This document shows, piece by piece, positions 1,755 through 30,997 of a stretch of DNA of 36,196 nt. The position numbers and the translations under genes are program-made. This DNA comes from a virus. The stretch spans positions 1-36,196 of the IMG/VR virus record IMGVR_UViG_3300044971_002261. One strand, given 5' to 3'. The notes under the pieces are model-generated. The model saw only the letters and a list, made by a program, of their open reading frames with translations. It ran no database searches and had not been told where the DNA came from. Numbering within the stretch: position 1 is the first letter of the stretch; every line of letters begins with the position of its first letter.

Positions 1755-4189
1755 GGCGGGGCGCCCTCTGCCGGGTTTTCAAGGGTGATGGAGACGTCGG
1801 CGGTCGCCGTCAGCGCCGTCGGCGTCGTGGAATCGGTAACCGTGCAGCGGTAGGTCGCGGCGGCAAATTCGCCTTCGCTGAGTCCGCTGGTCGAAAAGGT
1901 CGTGGTCGCGGCTGTCGGGCTCGTCACGGTGAGGGTGTCGCCGCCCTGCTTCGTCCACGAGTAGCTGTAGGGTGACGTTCCGCCAGAGGGAGTGACGGTG
2001 GTGCTGTTGCTCGTGATGGTGCCGCTGTCGCCGGTTTTATAGAGGGTCGCCGGAGATGCGCTTGCCAGCATCGATTCTCGGCGGATTGATACCGCTACAT
2101 CGATGGTCTTCACGGCAGGCGTGCCAGCCGAATCGGTCACGGTGCATCGGAAGGTCGCGTCGTAGGTAGTTCCCGACACGAGCGTCGATCCGGTGAAGGT
2201 CGAAGCCGCAGCCGCCGGGGAGTTGGCCGAAATGAGCGTCGATCCCGAAATGCGCGTCCAGGCATAGGTATATGGCGCAGTGCCGCCGGTAGCCGTGACG
2301 GTAGCGGTGGCGGTCGTAATCGAGGCGGCCGTGTCAGTTTTCTGCAGCGAGGACGGCGACACCGACACGGTGAGGCTGCCCGGGATGCTGTCGGCCGCTG
2401 CGCCGATGCCGACGCTCGGCGGTTCGGTGGTGGAACGGATACCGGCCGGCGTCACGACGGAGACCCAGTAATAGCGGGTCGTGAGGTCGTTCTTGCCGAT
2501 GACCGTCGAGGTCGAGTTGCCGCGCCAGATGCGGGTCGCGCTCGAGAACGGGGTGGAGCTCGTGTGCTCGTGCAGCTCGTAGACCTGATCGGGCGCGAAC
2601 TGCGGCGAGGGCCCCCAGGTGAAGACGATGGCCGACTGGATGCCCTTTGCGGTAAGCGCGGTGGGCGGCTGCGGAGTGTAGTCGGCCGGGGTCGGGGTGC
2701 TGATGTTGCCGGGGTCGGTGTAGTCGCTCAAAAGCGGGTCGTTCCAGTCGGCGGAGGTTTCCTCGCGGATGGACAATTCGACGAAGCCGCTGGGATCGAA
2801 CGACCAGCCTTCGCAGCGCACGGTCTTGGACGCCCAGCCGAGCTCGGGGATGGTGACGGTGCCGGTCTCAAAGGGGCGGATGCCGTAGGCCGACATATTG
2901 CAGCGCAGCGTCGCTGCCTGCACGAGCCGCGAGCGGCGGTTGAGCAGAATGGCGTGGCGCTGCGCCTCATACTCGTTGGTCGTTGCCGCAAAGTTGGTGT
3001 CGAGCCACGCCTGCTCGCCGTCCGAGGCGACGTAAGACTGATTCACGACGCCTTGGAATTCGACCTTTTGCCAGTTGCGCGCCGGGTTCACGAAGCTGCC
3101 GCGGACGCTGTTGTATCGCTGGTTATAGGGCAAGGCGGTCGTGAGCTTCACCCCGCCGTCGACCAGATCGTCGACGCCGATGGTAAATGACGGGGTCCGC
3201 CAAGCGCCGGCGTACATCCGCCAGAGGCCGCCGCTGTAGTAGCAGACGCCAGCCATAGCCTGAGCCAGCGCCTCGATGTTGTCCTCGAAGCGGTCGGTGG
3301 CGTCGAGCACGACGTTGCAGGTGTATCGCTTCTGAGTGGCGGGGCCGGGGATGTTTACCAGCTCGTCGCAGATGTCTGCCGCCTCAGCAACCAGCGCCCA
3401 GTCGATGCGGTCCGTGTCTTCGCCGAGACCGAGGCGCGTGCTGATGAGGTAATCGGCAAGGCAGAGCGCGGGATTGGTGCTGTAGGCGTAGGTTGCGGGG
3501 GTGTCCACGCGATGCGTGCCAGATCCGCCCGGGCGCGTTGAATCCAATCGCGGGTCGTATACCTTCTTTCCCTGCACCAAGATGGTCAGCTCAGGGCGGC
3601 CGGTGCGGTAGACCTCCTCGTCGTATTGGAAGGTCATGGCGACGTAGGCGACGCCCTGGCCGCGATGGTTGACCGTCCAGCGCGACGGGAATGCCGTCGT
3701 CAGCTTGAAGTCGACGGTCTGCGCGTCGGTTCCCGCATAACGACGCACCCATGCCTTGTTGGCATAGCGCGCGGTGGTGATCTTGCCATCGTCCGCAGTG
3801 CCGGTAACGGCCGTGATGGTGCCGACAGATTCGCGGTTGAAGTAGACCGTGCCCAGCTGCTGACACTCGTGCCCTGCCACCACGGCGACCTGATGGAGGA
3901 AGTCGTTGGTGTTGCCCGACGTCAAGGGCGGGATGGCGTTCATTCCCGACACCAGCATCTCGCCATAGACGATGCGGCGCGGCTCGAGCGTGCCGGAATA
4001 CTCCACATCTTGCGGCTGGCGGCTGATTTTTGGTTTGCCGATGAGCATCATCGCCGCTTTGGCAAGCGCGATATTGATCAGCGCCTTGATGGCGAATTTC
4101 TTGACCGCCGCCCAGAATGCAGCTTTGGCGGCAGCGGCAGCGGCGGCCTTGGCGGAGGCGGCGACGACGAGCGGAAGGGCTTGGGGCAT
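1751..4189 (-). CDS. Tail-tip attachment protein (lambda J / GTA megatron-like) with Ig-like C-terminal repeats
   Basis: 812 residues. An Ala-rich amphipathic N-terminus (about 1-50) leads into the conserved tip core (GEMLVSGMNAIPP, VVAGHECQQLGTVYFN, YRTGRPELTILVQGKKVYDPR, YSTNPALCLADYLIS), typical of COG4733 proteins that form the central spike and recognise the host. Residues about 515-600 resemble a fibronectin III module. Two tandem Ig/PKD-like repeats follow (about 608-705 and 710-803), each with GG(T)xPYxYxWT and a YRCTVTDS-type strand. It is shorter than lambda J (1132). It is the last tail gene, just before lysis. The repeats probably contact the cell surface (inference). Confidence 0.88.
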   Translation of the reverse strand: MPQALPLVVAASAKAAAAAAAKAAFWAAVKKFAIKALINIALAKAAMMLIGKPKISRQPQDVEYSGTLEPRRIVYGEMLVSGMNAIPPLTSGNTNDFLHQVAVVAGHECQQLGTVYFNRESVGTITAVTGTADDGKITTARYANKAWVRRYAGTDAQTVDFKLTTAFPSRWTVNHRGQGVAYVAMTFQYDEEVYRTGRPELTILVQGKKVYDPRLDSTRPGGSGTHRVDTPATYAYSTNPALCLADYLISTRLGLGEDTDRIDWALVAEAADICDELVNIPGPATQKRYTCNVVLDATDRFEDNIEALAQAMAGVCYYSGGLWRMYAGAWRTPSFTIGVDDLVDGGVKLTTALPYNQRYNSVRGSFVNPARNWQKVEFQGVVNQSYVASDGEQAWLDTNFAATTNEYEAQRHAILLNRRSRLVQAATLRCNMSAYGIRPFETGTVTIPELGWASKTVRCEGWSFDPSGFVELSIREETSADWNDPLLSDYTDPGNISTPTPADYTPQPPTALTAKGIQSAIVFTWGPSPQFAPDQVYELHEHTSSTPFSSATRIWRGNSTSTVIGKNDLTTRYYWVSVVTPAGIRSTTEPPSVGIGAAADSIPGSLTVSVSPSSLQKTDTAASITTATATVTATGGTAPYTYAWTRISGSTLISANSPAAAASTFTGSTLVSGTTYDATFRCTVTDSAGTPAVKTIDVAVSIRRESMLASASPATLYKTGDSGTITSNSTTVTPSGGTSPYSYSWTKQGGDTLTVTSPTAATTTFSTSGLSEGEFAAATYRCTVTDSTTPTALTATADVSITLENPAEGAPP

Positions 4190-4190
4190 C

Positions 4191-4586
4191 TTAGACGCTC
4201 CAGAATGCGGCGACGTTCGCGCGCGGGTAGCGCGTGAGGCCGGTGGCGGACATCACAAGCGCGCCGTCACCGACCCAGATTCCGGCGGCGAGGCCGTGCG
4301 GGGTTTCGATGGCCACGATGTCGCCGCGCGCGGGGCGGCCGTGTTGGGCTAGGCCCCAGAAAACGGAGACGGCAGGGATGAGGCCGCCAACCTGCTCGAG
4401 GTGCGCGGCGGCGCTGCCGTCCCCGCACGAAAGACCGTCGACCTCGGCGGCCGTGCTGCGCCCGGTCATGGCATCGGCAACGCGAAAGGCGAAATGGCAG
4501 CAGTTGTCCGTCTGCCAGTCGAAGGCGACGCTCTGGTGCGCATCAAGGGTGCGCCACATCCGCTCGTGCCAGTCGTGCAGTCTCAT
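4191..4586 (-). CDS. NlpC/P60-like tail peptidase (DUF6950-type)
   Basis: 131 residues from ATG 4584-4586, which overlaps the upstream stop (ATGA). The sequence F-DWQTDNCCHFAFRVADAMTGR holds a candidate catalytic Cys, and GDIVAIETPHGLAAGIWVGDGALVMS provides the second motif of the papain-like fold, although the canonical His is weak. It occupies the gene-transfer-agent g14 / lambda K slot between the hub-like protein and the tip protein. There, NlpC/P60 proteins cut peptidoglycan during DNA entry or help assemble the tip. Confidence 0.75.
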   Translation of the reverse strand: MRLHDWHERMWRTLDAHQSVAFDWQTDNCCHFAFRVADAMTGRSTAAEVDGLSCGDGSAAAHLEQVGGLIPAVSVFWGLAQHGRPARGDIVAIETPHGLAAGIWVGDGALVMSATGLTRYPRANVAAFWSV

Positions 4587-5272
4587 ACCTTGCTCGTGAT
4601 GGTTGAGCCGCCCGGCCTGGTAAAGCCTCCGCCGAAGCCGACATCTCGCTGGCCCCACTTGCCGACGAAGCCCTCGATGGTGTGCGTGAGGTTGAAGAAG
4701 TCGTCGAACGGAAAAACCTGTTTCTGATCGGCGTCGGTGTAGCGGGCGACGCGCGGCTCGCGGCGCAGCCGGTGCTCGCAGGTCATGGACACCGTCGCCT
4801 CGCCTTTGCTGAGGGTAACCGACTGCTGATTGATGCGCCCTTCCCAGATTACCTCGGGGGTAGCCACGAGCTTACCGCTTACGGCATTGAAAAAGCCGAT
4901 GTACACCGTGACGGTGCGGTTCTGGTAGGGCTGAGACAGCGCCGGCGTCAGGAGCGACGCATCCGCGCCGGACAGCGTAAGGGTGATCTGGCGGGCGATG
5001 ACCTCGACGTTTTCTTCCACTGAGTCGATGGTGCCGAGCTCGCCGACGCCGAGAAAAGGCAGGATGTTTGATTCGGTGGTGAGGAGGTCGTTGTCCTCGG
5101 CGAGCAGGTTGTCGCCGTCTTCCTGCAGCAGGTACTCAACGAAGCGGATTTCGCCGACGCCGTCATGCACGCGAATCGGACCGGAGTCGTAATTGATCTC
5201 GACCATCACGACCATTGTGATGGAGTCCTTGTCCACCTCGGCGGCGTTCAAGGCCTCGACGATGCGGCTCAC
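4583..5272 (-). CDS. Tail hub-like protein (DUF2163 / lambda L position)
   Basis: 229 residues. The C-terminal half (IWEGRINQQSVTLSKGEATVSMTCEHRLRREPRVARYTDADQ...) has the pattern of phage tail hub proteins in the DUF2163 group. An acidic repetitive insert at about residues 48-70 (LLQEDGDNLLAEDNDLLTTE) looks like a modular insertion; a related motif ends the head-tail joiner at 8924-9328. Order tape measure, distal tail, this gene, peptidase, tip matches the GTA plan. I could not see the four-Cys cluster that some family members use for iron-sulfur binding. Confidence 0.65.
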   Translation of the reverse strand: MSRIVEALNAAEVDKDSITMVVMVEINYDSGPIRVHDGVGEIRFVEYLLQEDGDNLLAEDNDLLTTESNILPFLGVGELGTIDSVEENVEVIARQITLTLSGADASLLTPALSQPYQNRTVTVYIGFFNAVSGKLVATPEVIWEGRINQQSVTLSKGEATVSMTCEHRLRREPRVARYTDADQKQVFPFDDFFNLTHTIEGFVGKWGQRDVGFGGGFTRPGGSTITSKV

Positions 5273-25444: not shown

Positions 25445-25566
25445 CGGGCGAGCGCCTCGATGCCGCGCGCGACGATGAGCGCCGTGCCGCCGATGACGCC
25501 GACGACGATGCCGATGCTCGCGCAGAGCACGAGCAGGCTCGCCCAGCTGCGGATGATCTTGAGCAT
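25441..25566 (-). CDS. Single-pass membrane peptide, 41 residues
   Basis: ATG 25564-25566 overlaps the SSB-like stop (TGATG) and TGA 25441-25443 overlaps the next ATG. Translation: a short basic start (LKIIRSW), one long hydrophobic helix (ASLLVLCASIGIVVGVIGG...) and a cytosolic-type end (ARGIEALAR). Perfect packing between two coupled genes argues that it is real. Function unknown; candidates are a membrane-targeting or small toxic peptide. Confidence 0.6.
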   Translation of the reverse strand: MLKIIRSWASLLVLCASIGIVVGVIGGTALIVARGIEALAR

Positions 25567-25829
25567 CAGAACGGGATCTCGTCGTTGAACTCGTCGGTCG
25601 AGGTCTGCGCCGGCTTGGCTGCAGCGGGAGCGGCGTCCTTCGGCTTCACGCGCAGGGACAGGAACTTCGAGCCCGGGGTCTTGGCGTTCGGGCCTGCGGT
25701 CTTGATCCAGCCGTCGAGCCAGTACTCGACGCCGCCGACGTTGATGGAGCCGCGGTAGTCGGCGTGGGTGTCCTTCTCCTTGCGCTCGTTGCGGCCGAGG
25801 GTTCCGGTGTTGGTGTTGTCGTAGCTCAT
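25566..25829 (-). CDS. Minimal single-stranded-DNA-binding-like protein
   Basis: 87 residues from ATG 25827-25829; longer frames are shadows. The core DTHADYRGSINVGGVEYWLDGWIKTAGPNAKTPGSKFLSLRVKPKD looks like a short OB-fold. The extreme C-terminus DEFNDEIPF copies the acidic tip of bacterial SSB (DDDIPF) that docks partner proteins. It is about half the size of E. coli SSB. It lies beside the primase-helicase gene. DNA binding is inferred. Confidence 0.65.
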   Translation of the reverse strand: MSYDNTNTGTLGRNERKEKDTHADYRGSINVGGVEYWLDGWIKTAGPNAKTPGSKFLSLRVKPKDAAPAAAKPAQTSTDEFNDEIPF

Positions 25830-26032
25830 GGGGTCTCCTTGGGGGGTGTGGACGCCTTGCCGGCGATCCGGTGGGTAGTGCCGTCGGCTTCGGTGACCTC
25901 GAGGGCGGTCATCTTGGCCGATGGGAATCTGGTCTTGGCCTGGTCGAGGAACTCGAGGGTGCCGGGTGACAGTCGCCGCAGCAGGGCGCGCACCCGTTCC
26001 CGTCGCTCCTCGGGGGTGGGGGTCTTGGTCAT
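25826..26032 (-). CDS. Small helical hypothetical protein
   Basis: 68 residues from ATG 26030-26032. TPEERRERVRALLRRLSPGTLEFLDQAKTRFPSAKMTALEVTEADGTTHRIAGKA is a helix pair plus short strands. Its stop overlaps the SSB-like ATG (ATGA). It is the first gene after the inverted repeat cluster at 26053-26231. No family recognised; a replication accessory is conceivable from position. Confidence 0.55.
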   Translation of the reverse strand: MTKTPTPEERRERVRALLRRLSPGTLEFLDQAKTRFPSAKMTALEVTEADGTTHRIAGKASTPPKETP

Positions 26033-26052
26033 GCTGCCCCCCGTCCATGAGG

Positions 26053-26231
26053 GCGCACAACCGCACCCCGACCCGTCAGGGAGGGGGTCGGTTGTCGCGA
26101 CCGAGGTGCACAACCGTTCCCCCTGCACAACGGTTGCAGTAGGGGGGGGTTATAGGGGGGGGAACGATGTGTGCACGGTTGTGCACCGTTGTGCGCCTTT
26201 TCGGGCATCCGTTGTGCGAACCGTTGTGCGC
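26053..26231. repeat. Inverted cluster of seven CCGTTGTGC repeats around G8-TTATA-G8
   Basis: Three copies in one orientation (GCGCACAACCG 26053-26063, GTGCACAACCGTT 26106-26118, TGCACAACGGTTGCA 26124-26138) face four in the other (ACGGTTGTGCAC 26175-26186, ACCGTTGTGCGC 26185-26196, TCCGTTGTGCGA 26208-26219, ACCGTTGTGCGC 26220-26231). Between them, at 26142-26162, are two runs of eight G separated by TTATA. The cluster abuts the stop of the primase-helicase gene. This looks like iterons of a replication origin or multiple operator sites. The G runs could form a quadruplex. Confidence 0.75.
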
Positions 26232-28292
26232 TCATCGGGGGGTATCCTCGGCCACCACGAGACCGAATTTCGGGGTCCGGTTGGCGTGCTTGCCGACCAC
26301 GTCCCGTGCCACCCGACCGGACTGCTGGAGGCGGTAGAGGGCGTCGGTCAGGGCGGGGGTGTCGGTGCGCTTCGCCATCTTCCGATCGACCATGATGCGG
26401 GGCAGGAAGGCCGGGTTGCGTTTCTCGTCGGAGGTGCTGATGCCGGCCTTGGCGAGCTGCTGGATGGCATCGAGGACCAGCATCTCCGCCCGCCCCGGGT
26501 GCATGGAACGCTCCAGGACGGCCTTGGGGGCGTCCACGGCGAAGGTGTGCCGGATAGGGTCGTACCGCAGCTGGACGGCGTCCAGGGCGCTGTAATTCGA
26601 TTTCCGGCGGGCAAGGTGCCGGATGTTGGGGTCGGGCTCGCCCTGCTCGTCGTCCTTGGCGTCGGGCAGGTTGCGGCCGAAGTACCACCGGGATCTGACG
26701 GCGGCCTCCCAGGCGGTGCTGCCGGCCCACTCGGAGCCCTCACTCTTGGCGGGGTGGCCAAGGAGGACGATGGCGGTCGGCCGGTAGCGGTTGCACGCGC
26801 CGGCGACGAGGTTGACGAAGGTGGTGACGTGGTGGCGCTCGTTCTCGTTGCCGCCGAAGAGGCGCGCGATGTTGTCGAGGACGATGACTTCTGCACCGTA
26901 GTCCGCCACCTGCTCGGCGAGCTCGTCGATGAGCTTGGTGGGCTGGATGGTGCCGAAGACCGTTTCGACGAGCGTGCACGAGCGGCCGGCGAAGGACTCG
27001 ATTATCAGGTCGTCGTAGGCTGTCAGGTCCGTGCCCATCACCTCGGCGATGTTCATCTGCCTGCGCCAGACCTCGTCGTGATCGTCCTCGCCCGCCCAGA
27101 CGAGCACCTTGCGCGCCTTCGGGATCGGCTCGATGAAGGGCGTGCCGGTCGCGATGTGCGAGGCGATCTGCTGGGCGAGGAGCGACTTGCCGACGCCACC
27201 GGGGCCGGCGAGCAAGGTGACGTAGCCGCAGCCGAGCCAGTGCGGGATGACCCAGTCGCGCTCGGGCGGGGTCTGGAAGTGCAGCGCCTTCCAGTCGAGC
27301 GGCTTGCGCTCGGGCTGGGTGGTGCTGAACTCGACGGCGTAGCCGGGCGGCTCGTCGGGTTCGGCGTTGGTATCGAGCCACGGTGGCGGCTCGTCTGCCG
27401 GGGCATCTTCGGGAATGGCGTAGGCGTTGCGGGTGGCGCGGGTGTCGCCGAACTTCTGCCAGGCGCTGCGTGCGATGCCGGGGACGCGCGCGCGCAGGTC
27501 GATGCCGTCGGCGTTGTACGAGTTGCCGTCCGCGAAGAGCGCATCGAGGGCGGCTGCGATGTCATCCTCGGCCATGCCGCGCGCGGCCCAGCGGGCCGAG
27601 AGCTTGAGCATCGCCTGGTAGCGGTCCTCGCCGCGCTCGAATGCGGCGCGCAGCTGCGTGTCGGTCGTAAGGTCGCGACGGGTCTCGCCGCTGCTCGTCG
27701 CTGAGGTATGGAACAGCGGCTCGATGTGCAGGGCTTGGTCGATGCAGCGGCCGTCGGTGCTTTCCGTCTCGTAGGCGACGCCGCGGACCCGCCCGATATA
27801 GAACGACTGCGAAAGCGTGAACGACTCGCGCGAGGCCACGCCTCCGAGGATGCGGTTCGCGCGCCCGACAAGGGCTTCGCGTTCGCCTGGGACTGCGGGA
27901 TCGAGGAGCGGCAGCAGCACGCGCCAGCGCGGGGCCTCGGGCTTGTGGCTGGGGCTGGTGTAGAGCACTGCGCGGACGTTCGCGGCGCGCAGCTTCGCGG
28001 CGGCGAGTGCGAGCGGCATCTGCTCGCCGTCGTAGTCGACCTCGACGCCATAGATCCGCTTCACGTTCGCGGCGTGGCGGATGCTGCCCTTGTCGCTGAT
28101 TGTGTCGCCGTACTCGGCCATCGAGATGAGCGGACACGCCTTCTTGTCGATGTAGGTCGGGGCACCGACCACGCGCGCGACGAAGTCCGACCATGCCACA
28201 TCGGCGCGCTCGGTCTTATCGACCGGGTAGACCGAGTCGAAGATCGTATAGGTGACGAGCAGCTCTTGCGGCGCGGACTCCACGGCGGTCAC
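26232..28292 (-). CDS. Primase-helicase fusion: AEP-like primase plus RepA/DnaB-like ATPase
   Basis: 686 residues from GTG 28290-28292 (GTGA coupling). The N-terminal part has primase-polymerase features: VEVDYD (83-88), YTSPSHKPEAPRWR (111-124) and SLSQSFYIGRVRG-like segment near 160-171. A PriCT-like helical region (RWAARGMAEDDIAAALDALFADG) precedes the ATPase: Walker A GPGGVGKS 363-370, Walker B EVIVLDN 468-474, and LLGHPAK sensor near 510-516. A winged-helix-like C-terminus ends it. The pair can prime and unwind DNA, so the phage likely starts its own replication. Confidence 0.85.
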   Translation of the reverse strand: MTAVESAPQELLVTYTIFDSVYPVDKTERADVAWSDFVARVVGAPTYIDKKACPLISMAEYGDTISDKGSIRHAANVKRIYGVEVDYDGEQMPLALAAAKLRAANVRAVLYTSPSHKPEAPRWRVLLPLLDPAVPGEREALVGRANRILGGVASRESFTLSQSFYIGRVRGVAYETESTDGRCIDQALHIEPLFHTSATSSGETRRDLTTDTQLRAAFERGEDRYQAMLKLSARWAARGMAEDDIAAALDALFADGNSYNADGIDLRARVPGIARSAWQKFGDTRATRNAYAIPEDAPADEPPPWLDTNAEPDEPPGYAVEFSTTQPERKPLDWKALHFQTPPERDWVIPHWLGCGYVTLLAGPGGVGKSLLAQQIASHIATGTPFIEPIPKARKVLVWAGEDDHDEVWRRQMNIAEVMGTDLTAYDDLIIESFAGRSCTLVETVFGTIQPTKLIDELAEQVADYGAEVIVLDNIARLFGGNENERHHVTTFVNLVAGACNRYRPTAIVLLGHPAKSEGSEWAGSTAWEAAVRSRWYFGRNLPDAKDDEQGEPDPNIRHLARRKSNYSALDAVQLRYDPIRHTFAVDAPKAVLERSMHPGRAEMLVLDAIQQLAKAGISTSDEKRNPAFLPRIMVDRKMAKRTDTPALTDALYRLQQSGRVARDVVGKHANRTPKFGLVVAEDTPR

Positions 28293-29952: not shown

Positions 29953-30164
29953 CCGATCCCATCGACCGCTTCTACGAGAACCTGTCGCTCGCCGTCGGCA
30001 TCGACCGCGACACGCTGCCGGGGCTGCGGGTGACGGCACCTACCGACGTCCGCCTGGTCGGCGTCACCGTCGGCGAGCTCGCGCACGCGCTTCGGTTCTC
30101 CGGCCTCATCATCACGAGCACCGGCGACGGTGTGCAGATCCGCAAGCAGGGGGACAACGTATGA
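29949..30164 (+). CDS. Small hypothetical protein
   Basis: 71 residues from GTG 29949-29951, overlapping the previous stop. DPIDRFYENLSLAVGIDRDTLPGLRVTAPTDVRLVGVTVGELAHALRFSGLIITSTGDGVQIRKQG mixes helices and strands. Its stop overlaps the nuclease ATG. Unknown function. Confidence 0.55.
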   Translation: MTDPIDRFYENLSLAVGIDRDTLPGLRVTAPTDVRLVGVTVGELAHALRFSGLIITSTGDGVQIRKQGDNV

Positions 30165-30997
30165 CCGCCGAGACCGACTACCGCGCCGTCAAGGCCATCA
30201 ACATCAGCGGCCTCAAGTACCTGCGGCACTCGCCGTCGATGTACCAGTACCGGCTTCAGCACGCGCAGGAGTCCGACTCGATGGCGTTCGGCACGCTCGC
30301 GCACCTGCTGACCTTGGAGCCGCACCGCTTCGAGCGGGATGTGGCGGTCTGGACGAGCCGCACCGAGGCGGGGTCGATGTCGCCGCGCCGTGGCAAGGCT
30401 TGGGACGCCTTCGTCGAGGCGAATGCCGGTCGCATGATCGTGACCGAGAACGATTACCTCGACGCCTCGGTTTTGGCGGCTGCGGTGCGGGCGAACCCGG
30501 CGGCGATGCGGTACCTCGTGGACGGCGTGGCTGAGGTCGCGATGTACTGGGAATGGCCGGTCGGACCGTGCAAGGGTCGCCTCGATTTCGTGACCCGCGT
30601 GGACGGCAAGACCGTCATCGTCGGGCTCAAGACCGCCCGCGACTGCCGGCCCATCCAGTTCAGCTCGCAGGCCTTTAAGCTGGGCTATCACCTGCAGTGG
30701 GCGTGGTACCAGGACGGCTACGAGTTCCAGCACGGCGAATACCCGCGCATGGTCGAGATCGTGGTCGACAGCAGCGAGCCGCATCACGTCGTCGTGTACG
30801 ACATCCCCGACGAGGTGCTGGAGTACGGGCGGCAGGAGTACCAGGCGTTGCTCGAGACGCTGCAGCACTGCCGCGAGACCGGCGAGTGGCCGGGCCCCGC
30901 GCGCGGCGAGGTAACTTTCACGCTGCCGACGTGGGTCTGGCGGCAGGACGAGAACGACATCACGAGCCTCGGGCTCGAGGAGGGCGACGATGAGTGA
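30161..30997 (+). CDS. RecE/Cas4-type PD-(D/E)xK exonuclease, key acidic residue replaced
   Basis: 278 residues from ATG 30161-30163. AINISGLKYLRHSPSMYQYRL, MAFGTLAHLLTLEP (H48), CKGRLDFVTRV (D142), TVIVGLKTARD (K157) and QAFKLGYHLQWAWYQ (Q179, Y183) match the RecE/DUF3799 nuclease family that resects double-stranded DNA for annealing. In relatives the DxK motif reads DLKT; here it is G155-L-K157-T, codon GGG at 30623-30625. The usual metal-binding Asp is thus missing, so activity is uncertain. The C-terminal part is acidic. Its gene overlaps the partner gene by 8 bases. Confidence 0.75.
   Translation: MTAETDYRAVKAINISGLKYLRHSPSMYQYRLQHAQESDSMAFGTLAHLLTLEPHRFERDVAVWTSRTEAGSMSPRRGKAWDAFVEANAGRMIVTENDYLDASVLAAAVRANPAAMRYLVDGVAEVAMYWEWPVGPCKGRLDFVTRVDGKTVIVGLKTARDCRPIQFSSQAFKLGYHLQWAWYQDGYEFQHGEYPRMVEIVVDSSEPHHVVVYDIPDEVLEYGRQEYQALLETLQHCRETGEWPGPARGEVTFTLPTWVWRQDENDITSLGLEEGDDE

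Follow-up and report, generated by a model that had tools for sequence, protein, structure and literature searches.

AEP primases belong to families with exchangeable helicases (Kazlauskas et al., PMC5862659), and the same authors named origin recognition, without testing it, as a possible role of the C-terminal winged helix in these primase-helicases. In PICI origins, two iteron sets flank an AT-rich region, a layout said to be common to no other known bacterial element (PMC6092414). SaPI Rep and SCCmec Cch2 use their C-terminal domains to bind iterons that lie right behind their own genes, and SaPI Rep apparently does so as two hexamers (PMC7581432). For pRN1 and phage BIP-1, which have related proteins, a large stem-loop without iterons has been reported or proposed (PMC4234260).

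Here, we analysed a viral DNA stretch of 36,196 nucleotides (hereafter the window), in which a repeat cluster next to a primase-helicase gene had been singled out as a candidate replication origin. The original prediction held that no described origin has this layout. This claim fails because SaPI/PICI origins (PMC6092414, PMC7581432) and P4 crr (X51522) have such iterons directly past the 3' end of the initiator gene; the arrangement itself is already known from PICIs and P4. The window encodes the terminase GpA and phage tail genes, and no nucleotide match to a close named phage was obtained. Since the best matches of the terminase are Roseobacter phages, the host is perhaps an alphaproteobacterium. 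An Exonuclease VIII-like gene (30161-30997, plus strand; phrog_412, E 8e-62) points away from the replication genes. The genes of the replication region are as follows.

26232..28292, minus strand: initiator of 686 aa, with AEP primase, helix bundle, RSF1010-RepA-type helicase and predicted C-terminal winged-helix-like domain
27723..28292, minus strand: AEP primase domain, residues about 1-190, motifs D86/D88, H116 and D185 (motif definitions from PMC5862659)
26529..27314, minus strand: RepA-type (RecA-fold) helicase domain, residues about 327-588 (profile and structure match)
26244..26501, minus strand: C-terminal domain, residues about 598-683, proposed iteron reader (AF2, word co-variation, FeoC profile match)
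25826..26032, minus strand: small conserved gene between the cluster and the SSB-like gene
25566..25829, minus strand: SSB-like gene (phrog_7364, E 8.5e-15)

The primase-helicase gene thus abuts the cluster as first described; the SSB-like gene, said there to follow it, is not its immediate neighbour, as the small gene at 25826-26032 intervenes.

The initiator carries the AEP motifs (hhhDhD/E, sxH, hD/E), and D86/D88, H116 and D185 are invariant or nearly so in 36 relatives. The His in motif II is compatible with PrimQH or all3500, of the PrimPol-PV1 supergroup. Its helicase domain matches AAA_25 (E 8e-35) and a RepA sequence profile (E 6e-17), and residues 327-587 superpose on RSF1010 RepA (1g8y; Z 23.0, rmsd 3.0, 228 aligned); in the fold comparison of the initiator, helicase matches fill the list of matches. 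The AEP relatives include helicases of the RepA, VapE, DUF3987 and D5 types. In an AF2 model, the last ~85 residues are arranged as H-H-H-H-E-E with a moderate pLDDT of about 70; folded alone, this domain reached a pLDDT of 54 and the model was discarded. A profile built from the relatives' C-termini matches the winged-helix protein FeoC (E 6e-4), and the C-terminus of one relative (L049) matches Pox_D5/RFX. The C-terminal domain of the initiator is therefore predicted to be winged-helix-like.

Seven copies of CSGTTGTGC, all exact, lie within 26055-26229, three of them on the minus strand and the other four on the plus strand, and only one further exact match occurs elsewhere in the 36 kb. Read in gene direction (minus strand), four forward iterons are followed by the centre and then by three reverse iterons, and the cluster starts 3 nt past the primase-helicase stop codon. 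The description of seven copies, three facing four, around G8-TTATA-G8 is thereby confirmed.

26221..26229, plus strand: iteron 1 (in gene direction), CCGTTGTGC, exact copy
26209..26217, plus strand: iteron 2, CCGTTGTGC, exact copy
26186..26194, plus strand: iteron 3, CCGTTGTGC, exact copy
26176..26184, plus strand: iteron 4, CGGTTGTGC, exact copy
26142..26162, plus strand: centre G8-TTATA-G8, within a 46-nt spacer
26125..26133, minus strand: iteron 5, facing, CCGTTGTGC, exact copy
26108..26116, minus strand: iteron 6, facing, CGGTTGTGC, exact copy
26089..26097, plus strand: degenerate eighth copy, CGGTTGTCG, two mismatches
26055..26063, minus strand: iteron 7, facing, CGGTTGTGC, exact copy

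The maximum 7-mer count by this stop codon is 7, and none of 2000 dinucleotide-preserving shuffles gave a count above 5. Compared with the relative L004, the 7-bp iteron cores are unchanged at 49/49 bases, against 138/161 unchanged and 23/161 different at the other positions. An open frame (26029-26235, minus strand, 68 aa) overlaps the helicase stop and spans the iterons. We rejected it as a coding ORF, the differences between the window and L004 (9/10/4 at codon positions 1/2/3) giving no signal of coding constraint.

As the original prediction had asked whether the repeats are lost in close relatives with the same helicase, we looked at L004 and L005 (initiators 89% identical), and both retain all seven iterons, an outcome in favour of the origin. 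In L006 (initiator 49% identical), the corresponding position is occupied by a similar arrangement whose word is GCACAAATG. Counting 7-mers in the 300 nt around each stop codon with a threshold of at least five copies, we found that 21/36 AEP-helicase genes have a cluster at their 3' end, the corresponding count for the other ORF ends of the same loci being 4/1047. The former number becomes 20/36 if L022 is omitted, where the repeat counted is no iteron cluster but an 18-bp tandem lying further downstream. The cluster starts 3 nt past the stop codon in the window, L004, L006, L032, L043 and L048; in most other members its start is near the stop codon. All RepA-type members among the 36 have a cluster (9/9), as do most VapE-type members. 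Moreover, the 17 further RepA-type loci, found with L035 as query, all have at least four copies and 14 of them at least five. Exactly one orientation switch was observed in 13/20 clusters, where 3.1 were expected (P 3e-7). Each lineage has its own repeat word, and distant relatives carry unrelated words at the initiator stop codon, mostly facing: CCACAGT, GGGCCAAT, GGAACAGGT, CCGTGCG, CGTCGCA, TGACGCA, AGGGGGCA, AATGTTGC, GGAACA types, AGTCCCC and GCAGAACA. Given this turnover of words, DnaA boxes were rejected as an identity for the repeats, since boxes would stay alike between relatives. The AEP priming motif GTG (pRN1, NrS-1) was likewise rejected: it is found in the window's word and is missing from many others.

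No cluster was found in members with a PriCT_2 or NrS-1 helix bundle among the 36, in agreement with the stem-loop reported or proposed for pRN1 and BIP-1. L009, L020, L022, L024, L034 and L036 have a DUF5906 helicase, several of them with a PriCT_2/NrS-1-type helix bundle, and no iteron cluster. In these clusterless DUF5906 relatives, a stem-loop like the one proposed for BIP-1 may serve instead.

Repeats were also seen in other phage genomes. In Wolbachia phage WO (L052), AAG(T/A)TGGCA repeats at 4180-4400 lie right behind a RepA-like ATPase gene, and Rhodoferax phage P26218 (L050) has about nine CTGCTAC copies in facing groups at 2660-3005, intergenic and one small gene behind RepA; both are probable unannotated origins. 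In Vibrio phage 1.123.O (L053), seven CCGCGAG copies in a single direction (1834-2105) lie upstream of a RepA-like gene, not downstream. L029 carries seven CCGGACA copies from 4062, some 1.1 kb beyond a short AEP gene lacking a helicase.

The centre of the cluster deserves a closer look. The G8 runs occupy 26142-26149 and 26155-26162, with TTATA at 26150-26154. The original prediction suggested that melting of the origin could be tied to a quadruplex formed by the two runs, and seven-base runs do occur in L004 and L005. In L006, with 49% initiator identity, CCCCCCTACGTAGTAGGGG stands in their place, and the remaining relatives have unrelated or palindromic centres; neither G-runs nor palindromes are general. 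Because only the window, L004 and L005 have the paired G-runs, quadruplex-dependent melting is unsupported, and we consider it very improbable. By eye, L006, L026, L027 and L028 seemed to share a conserved palindrome at the centre, made of G/C runs around a TA core. This was also rejected: in shuffles, p<0.05 was reached only by L006, L027 and L038, and this test found no central palindrome in the window.

Which part of the initiator reads the word was approached by co-variation in 22 dereplicated RepA-type loci, with the last 110 residues taken as the C-terminus. Word sharing correlated with C-terminal identity when helicase identity was held constant (partial r 0.56, permutation p 0.0002, a guide only because the compared sequences are related), and not positively with helicase identity when the C-terminus was held constant (partial r -0.16). 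Among locus pairs with >75% C-terminal identity, 13/14 share the word, versus 6/344 pairs below 40%; since sharing was scored via shared repeated 6-mers, near-identical words (L070/L078) may score as different in these counts. For example, L096 and L097 have helicases that are 98% identical and C-termini that are 69% identical, with the words GAAGTGCGGG and GAACTTCGGG, respectively. These differ at two positions, and nearly all copies (4650-4830 in both loci) have changed together. Counting against this reading, the window and L006 have a GCACAA core in common despite C-termini that are only 26% identical. Overall, these comparisons indicate that the iteron-binding part is likely the helicase's C-terminus, rather than the N-terminus originally proposed.

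The concerted change of words also bears on whether the repeats have any function. A chance or functionless selfish short repeat would suit the shortness of the words; set against the shuffles, the ORF-end controls, the concerted word changes and the conserved iteron-core bases, its probability is next to nil. A multi-site operator, bound by the initiator or by some other DNA-binding protein and controlling the small gene and SSB or the replication operon, is decidedly unlikely. The cluster does lie upstream of the next genes on the same strand, and initiators that bind iterons frequently autoregulate. An operator nevertheless accounts less readily for the data, since it is the upstream initiator to which the cluster is linked, while the genes downstream of the cluster differ between relatives. 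In addition, the word tracks the initiator's C-terminus, and in L023, L026 and L028 copies extend into the end of the helicase gene. No RNA family, terminator or sigma-70 promoter was found at the cluster, the promoter test being a weak one in a GC-rich genome.

Given that the position, the facing sets, the concerted word change and the co-variation with the C-terminus are as expected for an initiator-bound origin, this reading is favoured. The cluster very probably makes up all or an essential part of the phage's cis-acting replication origin, and the initiator's C-terminal domain would dock on it. The proposal of a candidate origin thus gains strong support from comparative evidence, namely the position at the initiator stop codon in many relatives and the co-variation of word and C-terminus. 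Points against it include the spacer, which unlike that of PICI origins is not AT-rich, and the case of P4, where a similar cluster, crr, is required and yet the origin annotation falls on a second region. Also, GC skew along the window has no clear turning point at the cluster and was uninformative as an origin marker. P4 is also the model for a related alternative, in which the initiator binds a region required in cis while opening and synthesis start at a second site. The facing repeats of P4 crr lie at the same position, and P4 has a separate origin about 4.5 kb away. In the window there is no second cluster of the word, which has one further exact match in the 36 kb; the contig may be incomplete, and a second site could therefore be missing from it. 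We regard this arrangement as unlikely, though the least so of the alternatives.

On the preferred reading of an initiator-bound origin, the C-terminal winged-helix-like domain would dock on the double-stranded iterons. SaPI Rep offers an analogy for the next step, in which a pair of helicase rings would be loaded head to head by the two groups that face each other. The ring, of RepA type, would then open the spacer, the fused AEP primase would lay the first primers on the exposed strands, and SSB would coat these strands. More broadly, we lean slightly towards the view that AEP-helicase phages have one origin plan, with facing iterons at the initiator stop and at least four exchangeable helicase classes, in which winged helix and word form a co-evolving specificity pair and the RepA class is a one-polypeptide version of the three-protein system of RSF1010. 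If this is true, a natural recognition code could be read from the pairs of winged helix and word in many phages. Because of the co-variation between word and domain, origin recognition by the winged helix is directly testable, and natural pairs such as L096/L097 are a ready specificity experiment. For such phages, an origin-finding rule from sequence would be to inspect the stop codon of the primase-helicase gene.

Relative to the open-licence literature, the new elements are the identification of this origin plan in the RepA and VapE phage classes, the centre that is not AT-rich, and the co-variation of word and domain. Contrary to the statement that the PICI layout is confined to these elements (PMC6092414), much the same arrangement occurs in tailed phages, whose helicases are unrelated. 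As in SaPI/PICI, the iterons lie immediately 3' of the initiator gene (here the first copy is 3 nt after the stop) and form two sets (here four facing three); the Rep C-terminal domain reads the iterons there, and co-variation supports C-terminal reading here. The differences are that their flanked region is AT-rich, whereas the 46-nt spacer of the window has a GC content of 0.63 (local 0.67) with TTATA as its sole AT stretch; that they are satellite islands, and the window belongs to a tailed phage with terminase GpA and tail genes; and that their helicase is SF3/D5 or DUF927, in contrast to an AEP primase fused to a RecA-fold RepA-type helicase.

P4 alpha is similarly a fused primase-helicase-winged helix initiator, and crr, found 46 nt 3' of the alpha gene, carries 8-bp type 1 repeats in facing order (X51522). 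However, its primase is of the TOPRIM type (PMC4234260), a second cluster is annotated as the origin, and crr is a duplicated 120-bp unit. ORF904 of pRN1 also combines AEP primase, helicase and winged helix, with an origin just downstream of the gene (PMC4234260), but its helicase is SF3. The NrS-1 primase-polymerase is a phage AEP protein with a helicase and a sequence-specific start (PMC8718748); it reads an 8-nt single-stranded template motif, and facing iterons were not found described for it in the open-licence literature. PrimPol-PV1 AEP proteins have swappable RepA, VirE, DUF3987 or D5 helicases and a C-terminal winged helix, a plan matched by the present initiator and its relatives, with the winged helix predicted. 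Finally, RSF1010 shares a RepA-type helicase (the closest solved structure among the matches listed), a primase and an iteron reader (PMC4234260). The hairpins ssiA/ssiB of its oriV were not identified in the window, and its RepA, RepB' and RepC are three separate proteins, whereas here these functions are apparently united in one polypeptide.
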